Shown here: piece after piece, positions 7,783 to 30,565 of the stretch | Position numbering within the stretch: position 1 is the stretch's first letter | How the letters are laid out: the number at the start of each line of letters is the position of its first letter | IMG/VR virus record: IMGVR_UViG_3300030430_000310 | Location: 1-30,565 of that record | Reading direction: 5' to 3' (one strand) | Length of the DNA: 30,565 nt | Origin: a virus | Position numbers and translations under genes: made by a program | The notes under the pieces: generated by a model | Told to the model about the DNA's origin: nothing | The model's database searches: none | Seen by the model: the letters and a program-made list of their open reading frames with translations, nothing else

Positions 7783-8451
7783 ATGGCGACTTCAGGTTCT
7801 ACAGACTTTGATCTTGATGTAGCCGAGATCATTGAAGAAGCATATGAGCGGTGCGGACTTGAGGTTCGCACCGGATATGATGCAAAAACAGCGCGTAGAT
7901 CAATGAACTTAATGTTTGCTGACTGGGCTAATCGTGGTCTTAACTTATGGACTGTAAAGCAGAGCACACAAGCGCTGACTCAAGGCACTGCAACATACAC
8001 TTTTAACACTAATTTTACAGATCTACTTGAGGTGGTTCTTAGACGCAGTAGTGTTGATACGGAATTGACTCGGATGTCACGGGCTGAATATTTGGCGATA
8101 CCCAACAAAACAACGCAGGGTCGCCCGAGTCAGTACTACTACAACCGTCAAACAACTCCAGAAATAACATTATGGGCGACTCCAGAAAACTCTACTGATA
8201 CTTTAGTGTACTATTATGTAAAACGCATTGAAGATATGGATACTCTAATTAATACAGCGGATGCTCCATTTAGATTTCTTCCATGCATGGTTGCTGGTCT
8301 AGCGTATTATCTGTCTGTTAAGAAAGCACCTGATCGCGTTCAGTTATTGAAGTCAATATACGAAGAAGAGTTCCAACGTGCAGCGGCAGAAGACGAAGAT
8401 CGCGTACCTTTAAAAATACAACCTAGTATACAGTACTTGAGGGTTAACTAA
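7783..8451 (+). CDS. Head-tail adaptor-like protein (P22 gp4 / T7 gp11 type)
   Basis: A 222-residue protein. It begins with helices (DVAEIIEEAYERCGLEVRTG, then TARRSMNLMFADWANRGLNL), followed by a beta part (LTQGTATYTFNTNFTDLLEV, then RPSQYYYNRQTTPEITLWAT and TLVYYYVKRIEDMD) and a C-terminal helix (RVQLLKSIYEEEFQRAAAED). This helix-beta-helix order with P..YYY...P.I.LWP-like strands is typical of the ring adaptor that binds the portal and starts the short tail, as in P22 gp4 or T7 gp11. It is the first gene after the tiny-gene cluster, and its ATG follows the previous stop by one base. Family is inferred from pattern and context. Confidence 0.75.
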   Translation: MATSGSTDFDLDVAEIIEEAYERCGLEVRTGYDAKTARRSMNLMFADWANRGLNLWTVKQSTQALTQGTATYTFNTNFTDLLEVVLRRSSVDTELTRMSRAEYLAIPNKTTQGRPSQYYYNRQTTPEITLWATPENSTDTLVYYYVKRIEDMDTLINTADAPFRFLPCMVAGLAYYLSVKKAPDRVQLLKSIYEEEFQRAAAEDEDRVPLKIQPSIQYLRVN

Positions 8452-9023
8452 TGGCTCGGTACGCTTCAGGTAAAAAAGCTTGGGGCTACTCTGACAGATC
8501 CGGTTTTAGATACCGCCTGTCGGACATGCTTACTGAATGGAATGGCTTAAAGGTCGGACCAGATGAGTATGAAGAAAAACATCCACAGCTTGAACCTATC
8601 CGTCCCGGACCCGATCCGCAGGCTTTGTTCCAACCTAGACCAGATCAACGAACGGAAACAGCGGGTCAAAGACTTCTAATATCTAATCCTTTTCAATCAG
8701 GAGCGTCTGGGTCTTCAGTCATAACGGTGTTTGAGCCTTCTCATAATCGTAGTACATCAGATGTTGTTATTTTTCGTAAGGTAACAGCATTAGATGGATT
8801 TACCGTTGCTAACTTACAAAAAGCCGCAGGGTACCCAATTACCGTTATAGACTCTAATTCCTATACCATAACTGCTGTTGGCACAGCATTAGTTGGTAAT
8901 GTAAGAGGGGGTGGAGTTAATGGAACTGTTGCACCGGGAGTGGCTTCAACACCAGCCGCATCGACGTTTGATCAAACAAGTGTTACACTCGACGCGACTA
9001 ATAAAACTTTTGACGAGGCTTAA
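8451..9023 (+). CDS. Conserved virion protein with FCCH-like beta module
   Basis: A 190-residue protein coupled by TAATG. Residues 1-62 form a conserved-looking block (MARYASGKKAWGYSDRSGFR, LKVGPDEYEEKHPQLEP, DPQALFQPRPDQR) that I recall from head-tail region proteins of many marine phages. Residues 88-142 form a beta module with VITV..PSH....D.V, L.GF, ITVIDSNSYTI, nearly the same pattern as residues 107-165 of the tail stabilisation protein at 21233. The pattern resembles the FCCH beta-barrel module that profile searches report in phage proteins. The last 45 residues are low complexity. It is probably a neck or tail component; the exact role is unknown. Confidence 0.72.
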   Translation: MARYASGKKAWGYSDRSGFRYRLSDMLTEWNGLKVGPDEYEEKHPQLEPIRPGPDPQALFQPRPDQRTETAGQRLLISNPFQSGASGSSVITVFEPSHNRSTSDVVIFRKVTALDGFTVANLQKAAGYPITVIDSNSYTITAVGTALVGNVRGGGVNGTVAPGVASTPAASTFDQTSVTLDATNKTFDEA

Positions 9024-9677
9024 ATGGCAAAACAAGCGGTAGGGATCGGCACAACTGCAAATGATGGTACTGGTGACACTCTTCGTGTTGGTGCGGACAA
9101 GATAAACGATAATTTTGATGAGATTTATGCAGCGTTAGGCAATAGCTCTAACGTGCTAACAGACATCATAGACGCGAATGGTCTTTTGGATGTTAGCTCC
9201 GGCGCTAATAAAATAGTGTTCTACTATGCTGCTCTTAGCGATTTACCTAGTGCGTCAACATATCATGGGGCTGTAGCACACGTTCATGCAACGGGTGGCC
9301 TTTACTTTGCTCACGGTGGCAACTGGATTAAGTTGAATGATGAGACCAGCGGTCCGGTGACCAAATACACAACAACTGCGGCTAACGGGTCTGCCTATCA
9401 GTTTTCTGGACCGGGAGCCACTGCTGGTAACAACCCCAACTTTACCTTTTACAAAGGTCATACATACCTAATAGATAATACGTCATATGTCAGTAGCCAT
9501 CCTTTACAAATAAGAACGGCTGCTGGCGGGTCAGCTTTTACAACAGGTGTCACAGACAACTTTAATTCTACGACTGGACTAACACAATTTATTGTGCCGC
9601 ATGAGCCTAGTGATACGTCGTTAGTGTATCAGTGCACAGTTCACGGCAGCATGGTTGGAAACATAACAATAGTATAG
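9024..9677 (+). CDS. Virion appendage protein with plastocyanin-like C-terminal domain
   Basis: A 217-residue protein in three parts. Residues 1-36 (MAKQAVGIGTTANDGTGDTL, then DKINDNFDEIY) match a common phage fibre N-terminus used for attachment or trimerisation. Residues 60-107 contain SDLPSASTYHGAVAHVHATGG then LYFAHGGNWIKL, a recurrent marine phage module. Residues 116-217 look like a cupredoxin domain: NFTFYKGHTYLID, SSHPLQI with His159, and VYQCTVHGSMVGNITIV with Cys204, His207 and Met210. Those four residues correspond to the His-Cys-His-Met copper set of plastocyanin-like proteins. Whether copper is bound is unknown; the fold may be reused purely as a structural module. It sits between the two adaptor-like genes, which suggests a neck or short-fibre role. 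Confidence 0.75.
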   Translation: MAKQAVGIGTTANDGTGDTLRVGADKINDNFDEIYAALGNSSNVLTDIIDANGLLDVSSGANKIVFYYAALSDLPSASTYHGAVAHVHATGGLYFAHGGNWIKLNDETSGPVTKYTTTAANGSAYQFSGPGATAGNNPNFTFYKGHTYLIDNTSYVSSHPLQIRTAAGGSAFTTGVTDNFNSTTGLTQFIVPHEPSDTSLVYQCTVHGSMVGNITIV

Positions 9678-9688
9678 CGAACAATAAG

Positions 9689-10336
9689 ATGTCTTTTACA
9701 TACGCAGAATTAAAAACAGCTATTCAAGATTTTTCTGAAAACACAGAAACAAGTTTCGTGACAAACTTGCCTGTATTCATACGCAGCGCAGAGGACAGAA
9801 TATTTACATTAGTTGATTTAGAGTTGTTTCGTAAGAATGCTACATCAACTGTTTCTGCGGCGGACCCGTATCTTACAATACCAAGTGACTATCTTGCGCC
9901 CTTTTCTTTACAGATCACAACAGCAGGTAGTAAAAACTTTTTGGATTTTAAAGATGTAAACTTTATACAGCAGTACAGCATTGATAAAAATGCAAACGCA
10001 GTGCCTCAGTATTACGGAGTCTTTGACGTAGATAATTTTATATTAGGTCCTACACCAGATTTAGCGTATACGGTTGAGCTTCATTACTACTATAGACCAG
10101 CAAGTATTACTGCGGGTGCGGACAGTGCAACTTCTTGGCTCAGTACTAACGCTCCAAACACCCTTCTTTACGGTGCGCTTGTCGAAGCGTATACTTACAT
10201 GAAAGGCGAAGCAGACATGATGCAACTGTATGAACAGAGGTTTGCACAAGAAATTCAACGTCTAAAAGATTTGGCTGAAGCTAGAGAGAATAGCGATGCC
10301 TACAGGAGAGGTCTACCTGATAGGCCACGCACATAA
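9689..10336 (+). CDS. Second adaptor-like protein (SU10 adaptor type)
   Basis: The start is ATG 9689, 11 bases past the previous stop; the longer in-frame reading from GTG 9632 overlaps that gene and is rejected. The 215-residue protein has helical N-terminal parts (YAELKTAIQDFSENTE, NLPVFIRSAEDRIFTLVDLE), a beta core (YLTIPSDYLAPFSLQITT, then QYYGVFDVDNFILGPTPD and VELHYYYRPASI) and C-terminal helices (LLYGALVEAYTYMKGEADMM, YEQRFAQEIQRLKDLAEA). This is close in order and motif to portal adaptor proteins such as that of phage SU10. It shares architecture with the protein at 7783 but little obvious identity, so the two may form successive rings or be distant paralogues. Confidence 0.77.
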   Translation: MSFTYAELKTAIQDFSENTETSFVTNLPVFIRSAEDRIFTLVDLELFRKNATSTVSAADPYLTIPSDYLAPFSLQITTAGSKNFLDFKDVNFIQQYSIDKNANAVPQYYGVFDVDNFILGPTPDLAYTVELHYYYRPASITAGADSATSWLSTNAPNTLLYGALVEAYTYMKGEADMMQLYEQRFAQEIQRLKDLAEARENSDAYRRGLPDRPRT

Positions 10337-20069: not shown

Positions 20070-21224
20070 ATGGCTTCAACATATACGGCAAACATAGGTA
20101 TTGAACAGCCGGGTTCTGGTGAACAGGCTGGAGCTTGGGGTACTACAACCAATACAAATTTTGATTTAATTGATCGCAATCTAAATGGTGTCGGAACCAT
20201 AATACTCAGCGGGACTACGCATACGTTATCGACATCAGATGGTACGTTATCCGATGGTCATTTTAGAGTTTTGGTTTTAAGTGGATCTCCTAGTGGAACT
20301 AATACAATAACCATTAGTCCTAATGATCAAGATAAAGTTTATCTTGTTTACAACAATTCTGGTCAAACGGCTATCTTCTCTCAGGGTAGTGGGGCTAACG
20401 CCACAATAGCTAATGGCAAAACTGCTTGGATATACGCAGATGGCGAGGGATCTGGAGCAGCGGTAAGAGCCGTGCCAGCAGACATGGTAGACGATACTAC
20501 CCCTCAACTCGGCGGCAATTTAGATGTAAACGGCAACTCTATAGTTTCTGTAAGCGGTGGAAACATACCCATTACGCCAGACGGAAGTGGTAAGGTTATT
20601 ATTGATGGGCTATCACATCCAACAGCCGACGGCACTGCCAATCAAGTTCTAACAACAGACGGAGCAGGCAATCTTAGCTTTGCTAATGCGTCGGCCTCTG
20701 CGTTTCTTTCTGGTATGCTTATGCCCTACGCAGGGACTTCAGCACCCACAGGGTGGGTCCTCTGTTACGGTCAGTCATTGAACACATATACATATAAAGA
20801 TTTACACGCTGTTGTATCAAACACATACGGGGGCACTGCATACAACGCAGGGGTTACCGATCAAAATGGTGCAACCACGGTATTTAGTGTCCCTGATCTT
20901 CGTGGGCGAACTATCGCAGGTCAAGATGACATGGGTGGCGCGAGTGCCAACCGTTTGACTGGTCAAACTGGTGGACTTGATGGGGACACATTAGGTGCAT
21001 CAGGTGGTGTTGAGACACATACGTTGACTGAGGCACAACTACCGTCTCACACGCACGAAAATACCTTCGGTCTTGCGTCAATCAACTCTAACTACGCATC
21101 AGGCATTACAGGTCTTGTGCCTACAAGTCCGGGTGGTGGAAATGACACTCGTGCTACAGGTAGCGGAAGCGCACACAACAACGTGCAGCCCACTCTCATA
21201 CTAAACTATATAATTAAAACATAG
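20070..21224 (+). CDS. Tail fibre with phage tail-collar domain
   Basis: A 384-residue protein. Residues 1-36 (MASTYTANIGIEQPGSGEQA, WGTTTNTNFDLID) are a standard fibre N-terminus. Residues 40-135 form a beta shaft module, 136-157 hold DDTTPQLGGNLDVNGNSI and 185-207 an ADGTANQVLTTDGAGNLSF turn. From 213 the collar domain begins: GMLMPYAGTSAPTGWVLCYG, FSVPDLRGRTIAGQDDM (272-288), GGVETHTLTEAQLPSHTH (312-329) and a terminal AHNNVQPTLILNYIIKT. H327-T328-H329 form the HxH pair that, in T4 gp12, lines the metal-binding trimer axis. The fold and the fibre role are well supported; the receptor is unknown. It is the last fibre before the tail stabilisation gene. Confidence 0.88.
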   Translation: MASTYTANIGIEQPGSGEQAGAWGTTTNTNFDLIDRNLNGVGTIILSGTTHTLSTSDGTLSDGHFRVLVLSGSPSGTNTITISPNDQDKVYLVYNNSGQTAIFSQGSGANATIANGKTAWIYADGEGSGAAVRAVPADMVDDTTPQLGGNLDVNGNSIVSVSGGNIPITPDGSGKVIIDGLSHPTADGTANQVLTTDGAGNLSFANASASAFLSGMLMPYAGTSAPTGWVLCYGQSLNTYTYKDLHAVVSNTYGGTAYNAGVTDQNGATTVFSVPDLRGRTIAGQDDMGGASANRLTGQTGGLDGDTLGASGGVETHTLTEAQLPSHTHENTFGLASINSNYASGITGLVPTSPGGGNDTRATGSGSAHNNVQPTLILNYIIKT

Positions 21225-26501: not shown

Positions 26502-29500
26502 ATGCCAGAGTTTATGGTAACCATGCCAGACGGGCGCAAGTTCAAAGTAACAGCGCCTGAAGGCACTACATCTGACCAGATACGCGCTGAAGTTGAAAAG
26601 CAATACGGCAGCGCTGCACCTGACAAACCTGCCGCACCCGATCCTGAAAACGAAGGATTAATACAAGAGTTTGGTGAGGGTGTAGCTAGTGGTGTTATCG
26701 AAGCTGGCGCTGGTATAGCTGAATTTGGTTTAGCTGGCGTTGATTTACTAGCAGACACAGACTATTCACGAAAATTCACAAAAGCCAAGGATGAAGTTAA
26801 GACGAGCTTGGGCATCGATCCTGTGGGTTCTGTTGGTGAAATCACTGAAGCAATCACACAGTTTGTCGTACCCGGTCTTGGCGCTGCTGGCCTTGTTGGT
26901 AGAGCCGCTAAGTTACGCAATCTCAGTAAATCCGCAGTAAGAGCAAGACAGATCGGCGCTGCTGGTCTGACTGACGCCATGGTTGCCTCTGACGGTACAA
27001 CCACCATCGGTGATTTTGTTGACAGTGGTCCTACCATGACATCCGAGGACATAGGTCTGTCAGGTAGAGAAGAAGCAGCTAGGCGTCTCGGTAATAAGTT
27101 CAAGGTTGGGTTGGAAGCCGCAGGTGCGACAGCGGCCCTTGAACCTTTGTTTAAACTTATTGGTGCTACAGGTAGAACGGGACTCAGGCTTACCGCTCGG
27201 ACAAGCGAAGCTGTTGGGCTAAGTCAGTTGATTGCAAAGGGTGGTGAAAAAATTAGTGGAAGTGCTGCTAGTATTTTAGAAAGAAACCCCATGCTAGACC
27301 AGATATTTGGTCGATTACGGTCTCGTGGATTCTTACCTGTTAATATGTTTGAAAGGCGTTCAACTCTAGCAGGTGAGGTTGAAAGCGAATTAACTAAAGC
27401 TGCACAAAACATTAAACGATTTGAAACTTCACTTGACAACCTATTTAAAAACAAAAGTGCGTCATTCCACAACATACTAAGAGATGGGACGTCAACAACT
27501 CGCGTTGAAGCTGGTAACTTGTTCTATGGGTTCTTGACCCGCGATCCGGGGTTTGTTGACGCAGCTAAACGTGAAGCGGAACGATTGGGCATTGATAACT
27601 TTGATGCAACCAAGTCAGTGGACTTAGCAAAGGTGCTGCCTGACTTTATGCGTGACGATGCACTTGCAGCGCGTAATCACATTGAGCAGCTTACAAGAAC
27701 TATTTCTAGATCTGATTTTGTTCAATCAGGTGTAATCCCAGACGTACAGAATGTTATCAACGATAATCTGTCCGAGTATGTGCGCCGTAAATTTGCCGCA
27801 TTTGAAGACCCTAACTGGTTTAAGTCTGATGAGTTTAAGCAGAGCTACGACAACGCAATTGATTTTTACAAGCAGGAGCCAGCCGCTGCGCGTGAATTGT
27901 ATGAGCGTTTCTTTGGTCCAGTGCCCGATGATTTTACAACAGGTGTAGGAGTAAACGAGCGTGTTGCCGACGCATACGCAGAGAATATTGTTGATGCGTT
28001 TGTCAACAAGTATAAGAAGCCAGCCCCAACCAATAGTCAGGATGGCACAATAAACAGGGCCGTGCGTGATCGATTACGCACATCCATACTGACAAACAAA
28101 CCTATTAAAGAGCCTGTTCTACGCGCCATTCTTGGAGAAGTTAAAGATCCGTTGGATGCATACGTTGCGACTGTTGGAGATCTAGCTGAGTTTCGTGCCG
28201 TAGATTCGTTTTACAACTATGTGCAGCGTGAATTTTTAGATCAAGGTGATGAGATACTTTCACCAGAGGCATACAGAAGGTTGGGTAGTGAGCAGCAAAA
28301 AGAATATGTACAGTTAGGTGAGATACCAAGAACTGTCGATAACGCAGGCAACCCACTACCTGCAAGAGAAATGAAAGATATACAATACGGAGCGTTGCAA
28401 GGACAATATGTTAAGAGACCAATCTACAACGAGCTTACTCGACTGACTGTACCGGACGGTACAGCAGGTAGCTTTATATATCGTGCGACTTGGGGTAACT
28501 TCCTGAAAGCCAAGGGTGCAACACAGTATAGTAAAACAGTTCTGTCTCCAATTACGCAAGTTCGTAATGTCATATCTTCCGCTTTATTCGCCGCAGCGCA
28601 GGGTAATGTTGGTCGTGGTGGTAATGTTGGAGACTCATTAATGTACGTTCTTAACGACATACATAAGATGGGTAACAGACAGCGGGAAGTATACTATAGA
28701 AAGCTACAGCGTCTGGGTGTTGTCGGCACACAAACTCAAATTAAGGAAATGGATAAGTTGATCGAAGAGGGTTTGGGTGGATCACTCAAGGGCCAGCTTG
28801 ATGATATGGGTGTTAATGTCACTAGAGAGAAGGGTTCGATACGACGCACACTTGGTAGATCACGACTCGGAAACTTGTTAGATTCAGCAATTATTGAACG
28901 AGGCAGAAAAGTAAGCAGAGGTTTCCGTGATTATTACCAAGGCGGTGATGACATTTGGAAAATATACAACTTCGACTTTGAGCGTAACAAACTGATACGC
29001 GCTTTTGATGGCGATCAGGTTGCGGCGGAGCGTTACGCAAGAGACATGGGTTTTGATGATATTGACTCCTATGCTGCTGACATTGTCAAGAATGTAGTTC
29101 CAAACTACGAGCGTGTGCCTGAAGCTATTCGTTTGTTACGAAAAGCACCGTTTGGTAACTTCATTGCCTTCCCTGCTGAGATCATTCGCACCAGTGCAAA
29201 TACACTGAGCTATGCAGCTAAAGAGCTAGCCTCAGACAACAAAAGAATTAGAGAGATCGGTATGCGTCGCTTGATGGGTTTCATGTCAACTGCTGCCGTT
29301 ACTGGTCCAGCGGTTCAAGGCACAGCTATGTACGCTCTCGGCGTTGGTGAAGATCAGATGGAAGCTCTTCAAAGACGTGTTGCTGACTGGAGTCGCGCAT
29401 CTACGCTTATACCAACGAGTGTAAAGAAAGGTAAAGACGACAAATACTACGTCAGTGGCTATGTAGACTACAGCTATACAAACCCTTATGACTACTGGAT

Positions 29501-30565
29501 GCGTCCAGCAAGGGCCATTATGAATGCGTACAACAACAAAGAACTGAACCAGTACGACATAGATAAGTTTATGACGGATGCCACGGGTAGCGTCATAGCT
29601 GAAATGTTCAGCCCGTTTGCTGATGATTCAATCATAGCTGAAAAGATAATGGACGTTGCTCCGTTTGGTCGTCGTGGTCGAACCAAGACGGGTGCTGTTG
29701 TTTATGATGAAGGCGCTGGTGAATTTGCAGTTGACAGTGGCTTTGAAGCTGTAACTAAAAGCATGGCGCACATTGCCGACGCCTTTAACCCCGGAGCAGT
29801 AGAACAATTTATAGGCGGCATTGGCCCACGACCAGAACGTGGTGGTGCTGTTGGGTACAACCCAAGTCGTATTATGACTGCACTCACTGCCCCTGATGGG
29901 AGAGACCCACGCGGTAACGTGCGTAAAATAGAAGGTGAGATAGCATCTATCTTTACTGGGCTGCGTGAGGTAGAAGTAAAGCCAGACAATATTGTTAAGT
30001 ACGGAGCCTATCAGTACGGCGATGCTGTGTCCGGTGCACGTCAGATATTTAACCGCGCTGCTCGTGTGCAGGCTGCAATAAATCCAACAGATATTTTGAA
30101 TGCGTACAAAGACACAAACGCTAAGTTATACCGTGAACAAAATCGCATGTACGGTATGATACAGGACATGAGAGCGCTGGGTATGAGTGATCTGGAGATC
30201 AAAAAATCCCTACGTCAACACAAAGTTGGTGATGTCGCTAAATTAATGCGCGGTGAATTCACACCATTCAACCCGTCTGATGAAGTAAAAACGGCTGCTC
30301 GTAAAACAATCAGAGAATTCGGTGGTGAGTTTCCAATGAGGCAACTTATAGAAGAACGCAGAAAAGTATTGCGTATCCCGTTAACTGGAAAGCCAGTTGA
30401 ACGTAAAGCTATGGGTGGATCAATTGATGTGCAAGATGATAAGAAAGAACGTGTACTAATACCAGATCGTATAGGTGATGAATACAGGATAGCACCACCA
30501 ACTCCAAGTTCTGCTGCTCCGACAACTCCTCCTGTCGTAGCGCAATCGGCGGGGGCTGTTCCAGC
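26502..30565 (+). CDS. Giant internal virion / ejection protein (3' end outside window)
   Basis: The frame is open from ATG 26502 to the right edge, about 1354 residues, with no stop. Residues 1-38 (MPEFMVTMPDGRKFKVTAPE, IRAEVEKQYG) are a small N-terminal module common to large virion proteins of marine phages. Residues 55-85 and 105-135 are Gly/Ala-rich and membrane-active in look (VASGVIEAGAGIAEFGLAGV, FVVPGLGAAGLVGRAA). Around 660-690 lies FLKAKGATQYSKTVLSPITQ, then VRNVISSALFAAAQGNVGRG, and around 878-900 RKAPFGNFIAFPAEIIRTSA; both are familiar from giant proteins of pelagiphage-like genomes. The last 50 residues visible hold AMGGSIDVQDDKKE, then a Pro/Ala/Thr-rich linker. It would fill the role of T7 gp15/gp16, but no lytic transglycosylase motif was recognised. 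Minus-strand open frames here are shadows. Confidence 0.8.
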   Translation, partial: MPEFMVTMPDGRKFKVTAPEGTTSDQIRAEVEKQYGSAAPDKPAAPDPENEGLIQEFGEGVASGVIEAGAGIAEFGLAGVDLLADTDYSRKFTKAKDEVKTSLGIDPVGSVGEITEAITQFVVPGLGAAGLVGRAAKLRNLSKSAVRARQIGAAGLTDAMVASDGTTTIGDFVDSGPTMTSEDIGLSGREEAARRLGNKFKVGLEAAGATAALEPLFKLIGATGRTGLRLTARTSEAVGLSQLIAKGGEKISGSAASILERNPMLDQIFGRLRSRGFLPVNMFERRSTLAGEVESELTKAAQNIKRFETSLDNLFKNKSASFHNILRDGTSTTRVEAGNLFYGFLTRDPGFVDAAKREAERLGIDNFDATKSVDLAKVLPDFMRDDALAARNHIEQLTRTISRSDFVQSGVIPDVQNVINDNLSEYVRRKFAAFEDPNWFKSDEFKQSYDNAIDFYKQEPAAARELYERFFGPVPDDFTTGVGVNERVADAYAENIVDAFVNKYKKPAPTNSQDGTINRAVRDRLRTSILTNKPIKEPVLRAILGEVKDPLDAYVATVGDLAEFRAVDSFYNYVQREFLDQGDEILSPEAYRRLGSEQQKEYVQLGEIPRTVDNAGNPLPAREMKDIQYGALQGQYVKRPIYNELTRLTVPDGTAGSFIYRATWGNFLKAKGATQYSKTVLSPITQVRNVISSALFAAAQGNVGRGGNVGDSLMYVLNDIHKMGNRQREVYYRKLQRLGVVGTQTQIKEMDKLIEEGLGGSLKGQLDDMGVNVTREKGSIRRTLGRSRLGNLLDSAIIERGRKVSRGFRDYYQGGDDIWKIYNFDFERNKLIRAFDGDQVAAERYARDMGFDDIDSYAADIVKNVVPNYERVPEAIRLLRKAPFGNFIAFPAEIIRTSANTLSYAAKELASDNKRIREIGMRRLMGFMSTAAVTGPAVQGTAMYALGVGEDQMEALQRRVADWSRASTLIPTSVKKGKDDKYYVSGYVDYSYTNPYDYWMRPARAIMNAYNNKELNQYDIDKFMTDATGSVIAEMFSPFADDSIIAEKIMDVAPFGRRGRTKTGAVVYDEGAGEFAVDSGFEAVTKSMAHIADAFNPGAVEQFIGGIGPRPERGGAVGYNPSRIMTALTAPDGRDPRGNVRKIEGEIASIFTGLREVEVKPDNIVKYGAYQYGDAVSGARQIFNRAARVQAAINPTDILNAYKDTNAKLYREQNRMYGMIQDMRALGMSDLEIKKSLRQHKVGDVAKLMRGEFTPFNPSDEVKTAARKTIREFGGEFPMRQLIEERRKVLRIPLTGKPVERKAMGGSIDVQDDKKERVLIPDRIGDEYRIAPPTPSSAAPTTPPVVAQSAGAVP

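Follow-up and report, generated by a model that had tools for sequence, protein, structure and literature searches.

Whether marine virions carry copper is the question raised by a gene at positions 9024-9677 of the window, the whole 30,565-nt stretch of viral DNA analyzed here. An earlier note, made from the sequence, had described a plastocyanin-like domain with a complete copper ligand set at the C-terminus of the gene product, a presumed neck or fibre protein. Translation reproduced the 217-aa protein and the sequence quoted in that note. The gene and the parts of its product are as follows.

9024..9677, + strand: encodes a T4 gp9/gp10-like protein of 217 aa, of connector or fibre type, with a predicted C-terminal cupredoxin domain (ORF, PF07880, phrog_677, 80 close relatives)
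9030..9209, + strand: T4_gp9_10_N domain, residues 3-62, presumed virion anchor (PF07880, T4 gp10)
9219..9353, + strand: middle segment, residues 66-110, common to tail-fibre proteins (phrog_9729 tail fiber protein, E 6.5e-10)
9345..9674, + strand: cupredoxin-like domain, residues about 108-217 (AlphaFold2 model, PDB matches, amicyanin/plastocyanin profile matches)

The similarity to T4 gp9/gp10 extends over residues 3-62, where PF07880 matched with an E-value of 1.6e-8 and passed its curated cut-off (35.2 vs 25 bits). The T4 gp10 chain 5hx2_G also matched the N-terminus (E 2.6e-6); matches to the solved T4 gp10 and gp9 end near residue 44, and none reached the cupredoxin part. Searched as a whole protein, the product matched phrog_677, ‘baseplate wedge tail fiber protein connector’ (E 1.3e-46), a family that PHROGs names by position alone. 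Residues 100-217 correspond to the phrog_677 C-terminus (positions 296-409 of 412), and DNA 9369-9674, which encodes residues 116-217, lies inside this matching C-terminal domain. Residue 116 is where the earlier note had begun the domain; alignments move its start to near residue 108. The 80 close relatives are 87-94% identical to the product over their full length. The protein begins with MAKQAVGIG and has no evident signal peptide.

Pelagibacter phage HTVC023P, which belongs to a short-tailed pelagiphage type (PMC9599517), shares 71% identity with the window virus in the major capsid protein, and the virus is, judging from sequence, a relative of the HTVC023P-type pelagiphages. The phrog_677 or Kyanoviridae gp9-like connectors have the same C-terminal domain and the same kind of N-terminus as the window protein. 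However, the cyanophage proteins of this type are about 390-490 aa long and come from T4-like myophages, whereas the window protein, with 217 aa, is without their middle region and belongs to a relative of the short-tailed HTVC023P type with SU10-type adaptors. Its neighbours are listed below.

7783..8451, + strand: SU10-adaptor-family gene, upstream (PF24175 E 9e-13; 49% identical to HTVC023P gp54)
8451..9023, + strand: gene directly upstream (phrog_28581; N-terminal part common with HTVC023P gp55)
9689..10336, + strand: SU10-adaptor-family gene, downstream (PF24175 E 2.1e-28; 31% identical to HTVC023P gp56)

The GTG listed as the start of the downstream adaptor gene, at 9632, lies inside the cupredoxin gene; translation more likely begins at the in-frame ATG at 9689. 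The order is adaptor, small gene, 9024-9677 gene, adaptor. Both neighbours occur in the same order in at least 44 of 80 related contigs, and the upstream neighbour is present in 78 of the 80. Since the long tail fibres of SU10 attach at the adaptor ring (PMC9509320), we can reasonably infer, by analogy, that the 9024-9677 product is a neck-attached fibre or collar. The neck or fibre protein presumed by the earlier note thereby acquires a virion context, provided by the T4 gp9/gp10 N-terminus, the phrog_677 match and the SU10-adaptor neighbours, while its location on the particle stays presumptive. The flanking genes are also present in cultured HTVC023P, in which no match to the cupredoxin domain was found; presence of the domain therefore varies between lineages. 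In a tree of the domain, the window sequence fell into one clade (support 96/93) with gp9-type domains from other marine phages, which suggests that the domain came with the gp9-type anchor. A weak profile match at 20817-20915, considered as a second copy of the domain in the window, was rejected as a tail-collar-type protein without the ligand set. Elsewhere in the window, positions 26502-30563 hold a frame of at least 1354 codons that runs off the end; its placement resembles that of the large structural gene in HTVC027P.

These data bear on the idea that the product is an auxiliary electron carrier, that is, a phage plastocyanin at work in the infected cell. Cyanophages do carry petE (PMC3037559), P-SSM2 is among the matches obtained here, and one virion-type relative is annotated PetE. 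The 9024-9677 product, however, has a T4 gp9/gp10 N-terminus above the Pfam cut-off, lacks an evident signal peptide and is encoded in a structural module between adaptor genes; moreover, P-SSM2 has a separate plastocyanin-type gene beside four virion-type copies. We rejected a free plastocyanin (auxiliary gene) on architecture and gene context, and an electron-carrier role of this kind is extremely improbable.

Four residues of the C-terminal domain make up the putative copper site.

9498..9500, + strand: His159 (cat), putative copper ligand 1; invariant; on the ligand His of plastocyanin 2plt
9633..9635, + strand: Cys204 (tgc), putative thiolate ligand, sole Cys of the protein; invariant
9642..9644, + strand: His207 (cac), putative copper ligand 3; invariant; on the second ligand His of plastocyanin and amicyanin
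9651..9653, + strand: Met210 (atg), putative axial ligand; invariant; on the axial Met of plastocyanin and amicyanin

In a profile comparison with a broader alignment, all four fall on the four copper ligands of plastocyanin 2plt, consistent with the earlier description of these residues as placed like type 1 ligands. Calling the domain plastocyanin-like was apt for this alignment; the spacing of the ligand loop, C-x2-H-x2-M, is instead that of amicyanin, the plastocyanin loop being C-x2-H-x4-M. Across six-frame ORFs of at least 60 aa in the whole window, the pattern H-x(30-60)-C-x2-H-x2-M was found once, compared with 0.03 occurrences per window after residue shuffling. With the homologues counted, the four-residue pattern is far beyond chance.

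Structure prediction and comparison agree with the cupredoxin pattern recognized in the earlier note. The AlphaFold2 model of the domain has a pLDDT of 89.6 and a pTM of 0.83. Its top PDB match is residues 24-131 of copper nitrite reductase 2dv6 (VIA Z 10.6, rmsd 2.2 Å over 94 residues, 17% identity); rusticyanin and small laccases come next. Foldseek returned eight matches at E ≤ 0.001, all of them copper nitrite reductase or rusticyanin. The matched part of 2dv6 is the N-terminal cupredoxin domain of the three-domain enzyme from Hyphomicrobium denitrificans, and there it forms part of an enzyme. In the model, the first His lies ahead of strand 54-57, the Cys ends strand 92-97, and the second His and the Met are in the next loop; the modeled placement of the ligands is the canonical cupredoxin layout. 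That the four residues come together, a point raised in the earlier note, is consistent with these strand and loop positions and with the fold matches. In the full-length model the N-terminal half is of poor quality, which is no surprise when a probable trimer is predicted as a monomer.

A profile of 20 domains had 22 matches among solved structures, 21 of which are type-1 copper proteins or copper nitrite reductases, with amicyanin as the best match (E 5e-4). Local profile-profile comparison with PF00127 proteins reached a probability of 92.5 over the ligand loop. A Pfam search of the 9024-9677 product gave no match to PF00127 (Copper-bind), and NCBIfam, including the amicyanin family TIGR02657, gave no cupredoxin match for its domain; TIGR02657 matched 15 relatives weakly (best E 0.0039). 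We therefore do not count it in PF00127 and call it a divergent domain of the cupredoxin type. Two proteins bridge the distance. A second domain of the P-SSM2 fibre protein passes PF00127 (23.6 bits vs a cut-off of 21.2), and both PF00127 and the phage profile match one Bacteroidetes protein whose N-terminus resembles a signal peptide. By sequence, both bridge proteins tie the phage domain to the classical PF00127 family. Compared with amicyanin and plastocyanin, the window domain is similar in fold and ligand order but has no evident signal peptide, is fused to a phage tail anchor and carries Pro right after the first ligand His, where both of those proteins have Asn. This substitution means that second-shell hydrogen bonding differs, and with a second shell unlike that of plastocyanin the spectrum and potential may be unusual. 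Sequence and model together point to a divergent cupredoxin at the C-terminus with an intact predicted type-1 site of His, Cys, His and Met.

Conservation of the four residues in homologues was one of the checks named in the earlier note. His, Cys, His and Met are present in all 80 close relatives. In the 20-domain alignment, which includes 15 domains just 33-46% identical to the window domain, the four ligands are invariant. The full set was found in 457 of 458 domains covering all four positions, sets that overlap in contigs and so do not amount to 457 independent events. When 49 representatives with less than 75% identity are compared, just five columns show no variation at all: the four ligands and a Tyr two residues before the Cys. 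Many of these representatives were retrieved with patterns that include the Cys/His motif, so ligand-free searches are the cleaner test. With query segments that end before the first ligand, the ligands being read off afterwards to avoid motif bias, 158 of 158 complete domains from viral contigs had the full set. Homologues that routinely lack Cys204, His207 or Met210, a pattern named in the earlier note as one that would speak against the site, are not what the searches returned, as a single domain in 458 deviates. This degenerate copy, at residues 667-731 of the L148 ORF that starts at 706, has lost its Cys and His ligands. The other partial matches are either truncated where a contig ends or represent divergent or split copies.

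The pattern of conservation is central to whether the cupredoxin fold has simply been reused without metal, as a beta-sandwich block of a fibre whose ligand residues are kept for packing. Tail fibres often reuse beta-sandwich folds, and the L148 copy still matches the profile without its Cys and His. On the other hand, while columns of the domain alignment average about 50% identity, the four ligand positions do not vary, and the set is missing in just that one of the 458 domains. No Cys besides the ligand is present in 79 of 80 close homologues; among gp9-type cyanophage homologues, the same holds for 11 of the 12 examined. P-SSM4 gp9 has two Met in all, the start and the ligand. From the sequences, a lone unpaired Cys retained with two His and an axial Met is predicted by a thiolate-metal site, and packing alone would not be expected to conserve these residues together. 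Metal-free reuse is accordingly unlikely.

The same residues could form a real site that holds another ion, such as zinc, or a redox-sensitive thiol. Zinc can bind Cys/His sites, and with Pro, not Asn, following the first His, the second shell is changed. However, the solved relatives found by profile with the same ligand set are copper proteins, and a thiol switch has no need of an invariant axial Met. We regard a site for something other than copper as rather unlikely, and copper binding by the domain is strongly implied by sequence and model.

The domain is found well beyond the window virus. Throughout the marine T4-like cyanophages, gp9-type proteins end in it, with 331 phage records matched, and many of these cyanophage relatives are annotated gp9/gp10-like. 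Fibre proteins carry one or several copies of it. In the fibre protein of S-CAM1 (L091 1766-4021), the C-x2-H-x2-M half precedes the His half, which has no end of its own, as if the domain were split or recombined. A 168-aa stand-alone relative from S-SCSM2R (L089 2258-2764) is annotated PetE and has the N-terminus MAEKSFGVKDINLVG..., common to phage structural proteins; it is probably a virion-type domain and not a plastocyanin. P-SSM2 (L085, GU071092.1) has two of its four virion-type cupredoxin domains in one fibre-like protein. Its cupredoxin-type copies, with its one plastocyanin-type gene included, lie at the following positions.

27534-27839: cupredoxin-type copy
183197-183451: cupredoxin-type copy
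220019-220333: cupredoxin-type copy
225397-225717: cupredoxin-type copy
227413-227724: cupredoxin-type copy

Marine MAG contigs also encode the domain. Two Bacteroidetes MAG contigs encode a lipoprotein-like protein (L106 1876-2271) and a collagen-repeat protein (L107 1936-4965) with the full ligand set; the domain may have a cellular source or a shared exported role. Beta-sandwich proteins recorded under the names Pithovirus LCPAC302 and Marseillevirus LCMAC201 (BFVD A0A481Z6J5, A0A481YVH3 and A0A481YWX9) match the domain model.

Based on these data, we propose as the probable explanation that the gene encodes a gp9-like fibre or neck appendage of a marine phage, ending in a copper-stabilized docking or adhesion module. 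The T4 gp9/gp10-type anchor would hold the protein, probably a trimer, close to the adaptor ring on the tail or neck. Virions assemble in the cytoplasm, where free copper is scarce, so how the site would be loaded is not obvious; the exposed cupredoxin domain would most likely take its one copper ion after assembly or during or after lysis. The copper would then stiffen the loops and shield the lone thiol. At the fibre base, the domain would serve for docking or adhesion, holding the fibres or touching the host. The analysis itself establishes the domain architecture, the predicted fold, how the four ligands align, that they do not vary, and where the gene lies; in this scheme we infer the virion location in the window phage, the trimer state, copper as the metal and the docking role.

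A more active use of copper during infection can also be envisaged, in which the site lures host metal-uptake receptors, as a copper counterpart of the iron Trojan-horse hypothesis, or acts at the cell surface as a redox trigger. Preservation of the site is like that of an active site, the domain occurs on fibre and connector proteins of many phages, and precedents exist in the HxH iron of the T4 tail fibre and the Trojan-horse hypothesis (PMC11705849). Iron-binding HxH motifs are present in the T4 gp37 tail fibre and have been proposed for Alteromonas phage R22Y (PMC11705849). These fibres and the window protein are alike in having a metal site on a phage fibre, a predicted one in the case of the window protein, but HxH fibres hold octahedral iron between paired histidines in the stem, whereas the window protein would have a mononuclear Cys/His/His/Met site in a folded domain. 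Against active use, neither a receptor nor a redox partner is known. Moreover, gp9-type connectors, which by homology sit at the fibre base, have the domain; it is not confined to distal receptor-binding tips. A direct redox or lure function is possible, although active copper use is quite improbable as the main explanation.

In the open-licence literature we found no paper on a cupredoxin or plastocyanin domain or on copper in virions, and the genome paper on the HTVC023P type does not mention copper, plastocyanin or cupredoxin. Virion proteomics exist for S-SM1, S-PM2 and Syn9 (PMC3037559).

Even without metal, the present analysis names a fold for the C-terminal domain of the large ‘baseplate wedge tail fiber connector’ family. 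If copper does occupy the site, phage particles would represent a class of copper protein not recorded before, and a strictly conserved tail site of abundant ocean viruses would offer a specific, mutable target for the question of metals in phage tails. Marine phages would then also be among the organic copper ligands of seawater, as has been proposed for iron. We put forward, tentatively, the broader possibility that marine tailed phages, both T4-like cyanophages and HTVC023P-type relatives, have copper-loaded type-1 sites in their tails, about one per connector subunit, with copper needed for attachment, triggering or stability, and that phages may thereby take part in ocean copper chemistry.
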